DNA from: Prevotellaceae bacterium
Lineage (GTDB): Bacteria > Bacteroidota > Bacteroidia > Bacteroidales > UBA932
DNA: 46,791 nt
Reading direction: 5' to 3'
NCBI GenBank assembly: GCA_031277925.1
Contig: JAITLJ010000144.1
Span: 1-46,791, forward strand
Within the stretch, counting starts at the first letter, position 1. Each line of letters begins with the position of its first letter. The notes below the pieces were generated by a model that searched no databases, was not told where the DNA came from, and worked only from the letters and a program-made list of their open reading frames with translations. Made by a program: the position numbers and the translations under genes. Below, in pieces: positions 24,239 through 26,749 of the stretch.

Positions 24239-24335
24239 TATCATTATTGTTTGCAGATAAAGTTTATATTAGTCGTATTTAAAGTGTTGCATCTAATTTA
24301 TTATAGAATAAGATATCAATGCAGAGTTTTGATTT

Positions 24336-24430
24336 ATTTGATTGGATTAGTGGAATTTTGATTTAAATTTTACATTTTAAATCATTTTGCCATTGTTATT
24401 TTTTATTCGTAGGGAGCGACTATTTAGAAA
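24336..24430 (+). repeat. Intergenic repeat, left copy flanking the barrel gene
   Basis: This stretch, from ATTTGATTGGATTA through TTAAATCATTTTGCCATTG to TTCGTAGGGAGCGACTATTT, is repeated in the same orientation at 25348-25432 with substitutions and one small deletion. The two copies bracket the barrel gene and the candidate invertible segment. The rest of the 24239-24506 gap holds only the terminator. Confidence 0.6.
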
Positions 24431-24506: not shown

Positions 24507-25052
24507 TTATTTTCTGCCACCGCCAAGATAGAAACCTATAGTGGCTCCAAAGAAATGAAATGTTTCATCTGCCGATTTACCGCCATAATTGTACGAAAGC
24601 GCTAAACGGAAATGCGAAATATCAAAACCGGCGCGAATCAATGATCCAAAATTGTTTTTTGCTTCGCCTTCGATTGTTTCATCTCCAACCGTAACGCTTG
24701 CCGCACCAATGCTGTAAATTCCTAAACCAAGCCCTACAAAAGGACGGAACTTGTTATTGTTGAAATAATAATCGCCCGTAACCATGTAAGCCGAACTTAA
24801 TTTAACATCCACACTTTGACCTTCCTGTTCAACTCCTGCAAATAACGAACCTTCCCAACGAAGTCCAACTGCTATTTGAGGAGCGATCTCATACTTCGGT
24901 TCAAGATAAAATTGAACTCCTCCATCCAAACCATCAGAAAATGGTAAACCATAGCCAATACCGGCATCTACGCGAAATGGCTTAAACTCTTGTGATTGAG
25001 CTGACAATGCAACTCCGCAGATTAATACTGCAATGAATAATAATTTTTTCAT
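24507..25052 (-). CDS. Small outer-membrane beta-barrel (porin-like) protein
   Basis: 181-residue predicted outer-membrane protein. MKKLLFIAVLICGVALSAQSQ is a clean signal peptide. The mature chain shows alternating strands with glycine/aromatic turns (VDAGIGYGLPFSDG, FRPFVGLGLGIYSIG, FRLALSYNYGG) and ends with a strand FFGATIGFYLGG, so an eight-strand OmpA/OmpW-like barrel is plausible. Function is unknown. Upstream lies a 171-bp segment bounded by inverted repeats and carrying a promoter that points the other way, so the gene may be subject to phase variation. The minus strand otherwise offers only a poor -7 candidate, TGATTTTG (25119-25126). Confidence 0.85.
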   Translation of the reverse strand: MKKLLFIAVLICGVALSAQSQEFKPFRVDAGIGYGLPFSDGLDGGVQFYLEPKYEIAPQIAVGLRWEGSLFAGVEQEGQSVDVKLSSAYMVTGDYYFNNNKFRPFVGLGLGIYSIGAASVTVGDETIEGEAKNNFGSLIRAGFDISHFRLALSYNYGGKSADETFHFFGATIGFYLGGGRK

Positions 25053-25084: not shown

Positions 25085-25113
25085 TTTTTTTGTCCTATAA
25101 TGTTTATTATAGG
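25085..25113 (+). repeat. Left inverted repeat of the candidate invertible segment
   Basis: 29 nt identical to the reverse complement of 25227-25255. The site is itself nearly palindromic: CCTATAAT and ATTATAGG around a 4-nt GTTT centre. It lies 33-61 bp before the barrel-gene start codon. The form, two arms around a short asymmetric centre, resembles a recombinase crossover site. Confidence 0.75.
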
Positions 25114-25179
25114 CTCTGCAAAATCATTGTATAATAACTGATTATAAAATATTTTTAAAATATTTTAAAAAATATGATA

Positions 25180-25210
25180 TTTGTAATTATCAAATAATTA
25201 TGTACCTTTG
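25180..25210 (+). promoter_or_regulatory. Consensus Bacteroidetes promoter inside inverted repeats
   Basis: TTTG (25180-25183), a 19-bp spacer and TACCTTTG (25203-25210) match the Bacteroides housekeeping promoter exactly, the best such match seen in this window. It points right, into 25256-25444, where there is no plus-strand gene before the 3' end of the opposing tolC gene. If 25085-25255 were inverted it would point at the barrel gene and start transcription about 70 bp before its ATG. Confidence 0.7.
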
Positions 25211-25221
25211 CGCAAATTAAC

Positions 25222-25255
25222 TTTGTCCTATAATAAACATTATAGGACAAAAAAA
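25222..25255 (-). repeat. Right inverted repeat of the candidate invertible segment
   Basis: Contains perfect 13-bp arms TTTGTCCTATAAT (25222-25234) and ATTATAGGACAAA (25239-25251) around AAAC. Bases 25227-25255 are the exact reverse complement of 25085-25113. No T-run follows the stem on either strand in the right place for a terminator. Downstream at 25277-25301 there is another hairpin (11-bp arms AATCAATAATT) of unknown role. Confidence 0.75.
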
Positions 25256-25347
25256 CCGTCTAGACTGTTAAATTTTAATCAATAATTAACAATTATTGAT
25301 TGACAAGTAAAAAACAGGGAAGAAAATAATCGTCTAAACTGTAATTT

Positions 25348-25432
25348 ATTTGTTTGGATTAAAGGGATTTTGTTTTAAATCTTTAAATCATTTTGTCATT
25401 GTCGTTTTTTATTTGTAAGAAACGATTGATTA
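25348..25432 (+). repeat. Intergenic repeat, right copy flanking the barrel gene
   Basis: Diverged direct copy of 24336-24430: ATTTGTTTGGATTA, then TTTAAATCATTTTGTCATTG, then TTTGTAAGAAACGATTGATTA. Between the invertible segment and this repeat nothing gene-like is seen. Confidence 0.55.
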
Positions 25433-25444
25433 AAAGAATAAATT

Positions 25445-26749
25445 TTATTGTTGCGTTACCTGTTTGTATTTTGCAAGTTTTATCTGATAATTACAGCAGG
25501 CTTCGGCATATTGATTTTCACTTTTTTGCAGCAACGAATGAGCATCCAAAACATCTGTTATTGTTGATATTCCTGCTTTGTAATAATTATTGTTCAAACG
25601 CAAATTTTCCATTGCCGCCGAAACGGACTTCTTCGCCAAAACAATTAGTTCGTACGATTCTGCAAGTTCGTTATACGTTTGTTGAATTTCTACAATCATC
25701 AATTCAGTTGAATTTTGACGCTCGTTTTCGGCTTGCTGCATTTTCAGTTTTGCCCGTTTCACGGCATAGGTTCCGCTCCACCAGTCGGAAATCGGAATGC
25801 GAACAGTTGCAAACAGCACGCCGAAAGTATTTGCCTGTTCTGCAAAATTATGATAAACATAGCCTGCGCCTATGCCAACTGTCGGCAATCGTTTTCCCGA
25901 TTCTATTTTCACATTCAGCCTGTTTGCTTCTATATTTTTATTCAACAACCTGTATTCAATTCGCTGCATCGCGGCGGTATTGGCTTCGACATAAAACCTT
26001 GACGGCATTTCGGGCAGTGGAAACGAATCAATATCTATATCAAATGCATTCAACATTTCGCCAATATACTGACCAAGCAGCATTTTTGCAATATTTATTC
26101 CGTTATTAAGTTTCAATTCTTCGCTTTCGAGTTCCTGCTGTTTTAATTCAACGCGCAAAAGTTCGTTTCTGTTTATTATTCCTGCTTTCACAGCCATATC
26201 GACATCTTTGTGCAGTTGTTCCATCTGTTTTTTTAAAACTTTTATTGTTTTCGTTTTTTCTTTAAGCGCAACAATTTGCCAAAAACAGTTTTCAGTTGTT
26301 TCGTTGATTTCGTCAGCCGAAAGCGCCTGTTGCAAAGCGCTTATTTCTTTGCCTGTCTTTGCAAGTTTGTTTGAATTTATTATTTGTCCGCCCGCAAAAA
26401 CAGGTTGAACTGCCATTATGCTTGCCGTTTTTCCTTTTTCCATAAACTTAATCGGAACAGGATTGGCAAAAATAGGAAATGAAGGCGCAAGCGCCGAGAG
26501 ATCCAAATCTTTTTGAAAGGTTTGATGATTAGCCTTAAATATAAATCCCGTTGCCTCTATATGCGGAAAATATTTTGTAAAGGCTTCGTTTTGTGTTGCG
26601 GTTGCCATTTGTGTTTCTATCGCAACATTCTTTATTTTGAAATTATTCTCAATAGCTTTTGCCTTGCACGTTTCGAGGCTGTAAATCTGACACGTTGCCG
26701 TTGATATGTAAAGGCAAAAAGCAATAAATATTATTACTGATTTTTTCAT
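25445..26749 (-). CDS. TolC-family outer-membrane efflux channel protein
   Basis: 434-residue member of the TolC/OEP family, the outer-membrane duct of tripartite exporters. A signal peptide (MKKSVIIFIAFCLYISTATCQ) is followed by YSLETCKAKAIENN, the family's first helix. Two internally related halves of long helices and short strands follow, with PIPVK-type FANPVPIKFMEKGK in the first half and RIPISDWW (about residue 320) in the second. The final helices end AKYKQVTQQ. The nearest RND pump gene lies 1.2 kb upstream on the same strand, but an oppositely oriented HU-like gene and a repeat separate them, and no membrane-fusion protein gene is present. It has its own -7 box. Confidence 0.9.
   Translation of the reverse strand: MKKSVIIFIAFCLYISTATCQIYSLETCKAKAIENNFKIKNVAIETQMATATQNEAFTKYFPHIEATGFIFKANHQTFQKDLDLSALAPSFPIFANPVPIKFMEKGKTASIMAVQPVFAGGQIINSNKLAKTGKEISALQQALSADEINETTENCFWQIVALKEKTKTIKVLKKQMEQLHKDVDMAVKAGIINRNELLRVELKQQELESEELKLNNGINIAKMLLGQYIGEMLNAFDIDIDSFPLPEMPSRFYVEANTAAMQRIEYRLLNKNIEANRLNVKIESGKRLPTVGIGAGYVYHNFAEQANTFGVLFATVRIPISDWWSGTYAVKRAKLKMQQAENERQNSTELMIVEIQQTYNELAESYELIVLAKKSVSAAMENLRLNNNYYKAGISTITDVLDAHSLLQKSENQYAEACCNYQIKLAKYKQVTQQ

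Follow-up and report, generated by a model that had tools for sequence, protein, structure and literature searches.

Results

A promoter cassette between inverted repeats

The window analyzed here, a stretch of 46,791 nucleotides from the metagenome-assembled genome (MAG) of a Prevotellaceae bacterium, carries at 24507–25052 (minus strand) a gene encoding a 181-residue secreted, strand-rich, barrel-like protein, the ATG of which lies 36 nt from a short element bounded by inverted repeats. From the other side, a TolC-family outer-membrane efflux gene (25445–26749, minus strand) converges on the element and is a predicted target of it in neither orientation. The preliminary description had assigned the product of 24507–25052 to the outer-membrane barrels, which is plausible for a strand-rich protein with a signal peptide, but searches of Pfam and NCBIfam matched no family, and the fold model of the protein (pLDDT 36) was too poor for use. 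Rfam and tRNA scans of the whole window gave no matches.

The two repeats (25085–25113 and 25227–25255) are, as had been noted, exact reverse complements of 29 nt with 113 nt in between; in 500 sequences simulated with a first-order Markov model of matching composition, no inverted repeat was longer than 14 nt, so that the observed repeat is far above chance. The 13+4+13 palindrome attributed to each repeat is present in the right copy (25222–25251), but the left copy is only 8+4+8, because its inner arm ends in CTCTGC and not in ACAAA. On the basis of the sequence, the repeat, and the site architecture derived from 37 and then 104 elements (see below), a left recombination site is predicted at 25089–25118 (plus strand), composed of the outer arm TTTGTCCTATAA (25089–25100), the centre TGTTTA (25101–25106), and the inner arm TTATAGGCTCTG (25107–25118). 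The right site, predicted in inverted orientation at 25222–25251 (minus strand) from the sequence and the repeat, has the same outer arm TTTGTCCTATAA (25251–25240) and the same centre TGTTTA (25239–25234), followed by the inner arm TTATAGGACAAA (25233–25222). When the crossovers are placed inside both 6-bp centres, the segment predicted to invert from the site architecture and the matched centres (101 of 102 elements) spans 139 bp (25101–25239, no strand).

The cassette as a whole (25089–25251, 163 bases) encloses a canonical Bacteroidetes promoter, TTTG-N19-TACCTTTG (25180–25210, plus strand), the place of which is conserved in the aligned copies. To call it the best promoter of the window, as had been done, is fair, but it is not unique, since the window contains three perfect TTTG-N18..21-TANNTTTG matches. 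The direction assigned to it proved right: it points rightward, away from 24507–25052 and toward the end of the convergent minus-strand TolC-family gene. The proposed OFF state of the assembly is likewise borne out by this direction. In two sister species, G001 and G006, the orthologs (87 and 93% identical, respectively) also lie behind OFF elements. After inversion, the end of the −7 box would be 78 nt from the ATG, and therefore transcription would start near the claimed 70 bp before it. That all three known orthologs of the barrel gene (in G001, G006, and the MAG of the window, G000) are OFF counts against the inversion reading.

Two further repeats were observed around the element. A direct repeat of about 100 nt (74–85% identical) flanks the barrel gene and the element, with the first copy (24332–24429) downstream of the gene and the second (25344–25435) to the right of the element. 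The far-side flank (25260–25360) recurs with 77–84% identity at three other elements of the MAG, L062 (C108), L051 (C43), and L049 (C22), sometimes in reverse relation to its element.

A family of cassettes in the genus

A search of the MAG (2.15 Mb in 217 contigs, 84% complete) for further copies, as suggested in the preliminary description, was carried out with the 171-bp element as query and returned 13 more over all or much of its length, with 77–89% identity, giving about 14 promoter-bearing elements in total. The aligned copies share two palindromic ends at a near-constant spacing, mostly 133 bp, and a well-kept promoter, TATTTG...ATAYCTTTGCG, close to the right end. The palindrome-pair pattern ATAATNNNNATTAT-N104..134-ATAATNNNNATTAT was matched in all 11 genomes of the genus, 5–23 times per genome, and its reversed control gave no match in the same 11 genomes; a stricter pattern run over GTDB r220 returned 43 stretches, every one of them in eight MAGs named 'Prevotellaceae bacterium', with names like those of bins from termite-gut metagenomes. 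An order-wide search for paired dif-like sites was negative in all 393 genomes, a result that sets no bound on the distribution, as the same pattern misses the window's own elements. The set studied in detail comprises 104 elements from eight genomes, 102 of them with both sites complete; the promoter is perfect in 77 of the 104 and has at most one mismatch in 100.

For five of 16 copies in the window's own MAG, a contig ends no more than 160 nt away, so that assembly breaks cluster at the elements, a clustering that repeats alone could cause. At one copy of this MAG (L054, contig C45, 19185–19355), the inverted repeat is unusually long, its two arms staying 100% identical for another 39 nt into the flanks.

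Both orientations in front of surface-protein genes

When the genes adjoining the elements were clustered into families, the largest proved to be that of SusC-type TonB-dependent receptors (an assignment checked with Pfam on the MAG's own copies), with 27 genes on the promoter side (ON) and 10 on the opposite side (OFF). We prefer this count to the raw ratio of 29 ON to 31 OFF, which is misleading because it takes in a family of far-side open reading frames (1 ON, 14 OFF). Within a single SusC ortholog (87–90% amino acid identity over about 420 residues), the promoter is ON in G000, G001, and G010 and OFF in G003 and G005; in each of the five genomes, ON or OFF, 23–36 nt separate the ATG from the element.

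Homologies of at least 60 nt between flanks were found 187 times at the same end of the elements and 112 times at opposite ends. The cleanest opposite pair is formed by two elements of G002 (L246 and L258), which are 96% identical with their promoters aligned and 57% identical when one is reversed, and whose flanks match at opposite ends (79 and 100%) versus 39–40% at the same ends. Copy C3 and L282 of G006 also match in both flanks at opposite ends, but their relative orientation is less sure because the interiors differ (68% versus 61% reversed). Both orientations are thus documented between species and between paralogs, and they could be old, fixed rearrangements.

Architecture of the sites and matched centres

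Each element end has the form of an 11-6-11 site, made up of the consensus outer arm TTTGTCCYATAA, six central bases, and TTAT with a variable inner arm. The two ends share their 6-bp centre in 101 of the 102 complete elements (eight genomes), compared with a mean of 81 and a maximum of 90 in 2000 shuffles of the partners within each genome. As the centres vary from element to element (TTTATA, TTTACA, TTTTTA, TCTATA, and others, besides TGTTTA in the window), the match within an element is a property of the pair. Strand exchange by tyrosine recombinases requires matching centres. The outer arms, with five variable bases, agree less (48 of 102 versus 36 expected), and agreement of the inner arms between the two ends is not above chance, which is expected if the outer arms stay with the flank and the inner arms move with the segment. 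Judged by this architecture, the element ends are tyrosine-recombinase sites of the 11-6-11 form.

Relation of the sites to dif

The genomes of the genus contain a single-copy site, TTTGTCCYATAA|TTTATA|TTATGTTAAGTT (with TCTATA or TATATA as the centre in two species), which lies at the same intergenic place beside a glutathione peroxidase-like gene in all nine genomes with a covering contig. Its right arm matches the XerD arm of Escherichia coli dif, TTATGTTAAAT (PMC3025954), at 10 of 11 bases, and from synteny and sequence we refer to it as dif-like. The outer-arm consensus of the cassettes, TTTGTCCYATAA, is its left (XerC) arm. The inner arms of the cassettes are mostly the dif XerD arm in G003, G008, and G010, and are not the XerD arm in most sites of the window's species; in G008, element sites come as close as one base to that genome's dif. 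Nevertheless, none of 154 element sites is identical to the dif of its own genome, and the dif centre is shared by only 1 of 57 sites with a dif-like inner arm, versus 38 of 97 other sites. The element sites look insulated from dif, although the kinship among elements of any one species means that few independent events underlie this pattern.

Dif-like sites were also noticed elsewhere. Six IMG/VR viral contigs (L314–L319) carry the dif-like site TTTGTCCYATAATNTAYATTATGTTAA, which may mark phages that use Xer or may be due to chance in AT-rich DNA; these contigs carry no weight in the interpretation. In G030, which belongs to another genus of the family, six loci (L143, L153, L157, L160, L163, and L166) have sites of the form ATAA-N6-TTATGTAAA with mostly TAGAGT as the centre, several of them followed by similar sequence ending in CATAACCG, which may point to a dispersed element of another kind that has Xer-like sites.

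Candidate recombinases

The search of the MAG for recombinase genes, also proposed at the outset, yielded five tyrosine recombinases: XerD, XerC, two integrase-like proteins, and a 269-residue orphan encoded at G000:C66:26395-27201. (Directly behind an integrase-like gene on contig C109, L095, lie CRISPR-array-like repeats, GAAATTGAACC-TTGGAATTGAAACTT.) The flipping enzyme is probably of the tyrosine type, because no serine recombinase was found in the MAG (84% complete).

A search for the orphan recombinase was positive in 8 of the 11 genomes of the genus (62–77% identity) and negative in all 26 other relatives. It was not found in G004, G006, and G009 (83, 69, and 77% complete, respectively), all of which have elements, and the leuS locus, where some other genomes have it, is without it in G004 and G009. 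The tyrosine-recombinase motifs TGAR, HSFRHR, GH, and IYLRRT are kept in the aligned members. The orphan lies among chromosomal genes of an ordinary kind, ruvA and leuS for example; no phage genes were seen around its loci, nor was an hsdS neighbour at nine genus loci. Relatives with 60–67% identity occur in 5 of 392 other genomes sampled across the order, and these adjoin type I specificity genes (PF01420 in all four loci tested). A place beside hsdS genes is the position of HsdS shufflers. In a phylogenetic tree, the orphan (26% identical to the MAG's own XerC) and the hsdS-adjacent recombinases fall into one group apart from XerC and XerD, within which the genus proteins form no single clade separate from the hsdS-adjacent ones. 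The probable site of the hsdS-locus relatives in G358 and G355 is CTTGTGATAA|CGGGCA|TTAT, with a kept outer arm, an identical centre, and a variable inner arm; the dif of G355 was not found in the stretches examined.

Discussion

The results described above make it very probable that 25089–25251 is a phase-variable invertible promoter cassette, flipped in trans by a tyrosine recombinase and belonging to a genus-wide set. In the predicted mechanism, a tyrosine recombinase supplied in trans would exchange strands inside the identical 6-bp centres of the inverted 11-6-11 pair and so flip the 139-bp segment between the two sites, an inversion that we infer to be ongoing. In the present state, the promoter would face a gene-free convergent intergenic region, leaving 24507–25052 OFF; after inversion, it would drive this gene with a leader of about 70 nt and thereby switch its expression. 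The genus-wide set, with 5–23 members per genome, would mainly control SusC/RagA TonB-dependent receptors and other secreted proteins. The idea of an invertible phase-variable promoter, with which the preliminary description began, is thus supported by a promoter-carrying family, by both orientations before surface-protein genes, by opposite homologous flanks, and by matched centres.

A MITE, or any other mobile element that carries a promoter between terminal inverted repeats, could insert in both orientations without ever inverting in place, and would likewise leave many scattered copies whose interior is conserved and whose ends are inverted. We regard such an origin as very improbable, in that target-site duplications are not evident in the aligned copies, different copies have homologous flanks, whether at corresponding or at opposite ends, the distance to the gene start is the same 23–36 nt within one ortholog group whether the member is ON or OFF, and the centres match inside an element yet vary between elements. 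Even harder to believe is an arrangement without recombination, in which a fixed promoter is bordered by palindromes that serve as operators or terminators. Every site can form a hairpin, and one was flagged as terminator-like on the minus strand, but a fixed promoter leaves unexplained the orthologs with the promoter facing away, the opposite orientation between homologous flanks, and the agreement of the two 6-bp centres of an element. We reject both readings because of the flank homologies, the orientations, and these shared centres.

More weight has to be given to the housekeeping enzymes. That the XerC/XerD pair flips the cassettes, which would then lie between two dif copies, or two XerC halves of dif, in inverted orientation, seems to us rather unlikely, even though the outer arms carry the XerC-arm consensus of a conserved dif-like site, most inner arms in three genomes are its XerD arm, and the sites behave as if insulated from dif. 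The inner arm differs from the XerD arm in most species (TTATAGGACAA, TTATAAGACAA, and others), XerC-like proteins also occur outside the genus, where no cassettes were found, and the insulation statistic reflects few independent events among related elements of the same species. As for the flipper itself, we lean slightly toward the orphan recombinase of the HsdS-invertase type, against which count the different arm sequence of the probable hsdS site of its relatives and the failure to find it in the incomplete genomes G004, G006, and G009. XerC/XerD, alone or in concert, stays a serious rival because of the arm shared with dif; action by the host pair alone appears unlikely, and joint action with the orphan recombinase more unlikely still. 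It is a tentative possibility that chromosome-dimer resolution was co-opted, with dif duplicated as inverted promoter-flanking pairs that would be flipped by XerC and a partner, either XerD or an invertase of the HsdS type acting on the inner arm, and insulated from dif by changes in the centre or the arms.

These cassettes are worth comparing with known systems. In Bacteroides fragilis YCH46, a single tyrosine recombinase, Tsr0667, inverts many distant regions, including SusC/SusD loci, with shufflon-type inversions at three SusC/SusD clusters and action at nine other regions (PMC4747536). The present promoters are of the same −33 TTTG/−7 TANNTTTG type and likewise have SusC targets, whereas the genus differs, as far as descriptions can be compared, in having 5–23 small cassettes of near-constant size per genome, mostly one per gene. 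Short inverted repeats around a promoter and a trans-acting enzyme are shared with the invertible promoters of the Mpi and Tsr19 type, of which Mpi is a serine recombinase, a kind not found in the MAG, and Tsr19 acts on two regions only (PMC4747536). With HsdS-shuffling recombinases, the system has in common the 60–67% identity of the orphan and, at the probable G358/G355 site, the ATAA-N6-TTAT form, identical centres, and variable inner arms, but no hsdS (PF01420) neighbour of the orphan was seen, and the arm is CTTGTGATAA in the shufflers versus TTTGTCCYATAA in the cassettes. In Ureaplasma parvum, XerC binds the inverted repeats of a phase-variable locus and flips it, while CodV binds dif (PMC3599477); an Xer-type enzyme thus has there the role for which it is a candidate here, but the inversion sites here share the XerC arm of dif. 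Dif-like sites outside dif are also found in the dif-using Microviridae of Bacteroidetes (PMC3091885) and the XerC/D plasmid modules of Acinetobacter (PMC9947245), where, in contrast to the promoter-flanking pairs described here, they serve integration or plasmid rearrangement.

Invertible SusC promoters in gut Bacteroides and multi-locus promoter inversion by one tyrosine recombinase are already known. What appears to be new is the ancestry of the sites, suggested by the dif arm, and the enzyme candidate; our reading of the open-access literature turned up no switches of this kind that are built from dif arms, and none in termite-associated bacteria. An uncultured genus in which all 11 genomes share a single family of homologous switches offers enough material to trace the origin and spread of such a system. 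With an arm of dif in its sites and a relative of restriction-specificity shufflers as the foremost enzyme candidate, the family raises the testable question of what may drive a global surface switch: the housekeeping Xer system, or an HsdS-type invertase that was captured.
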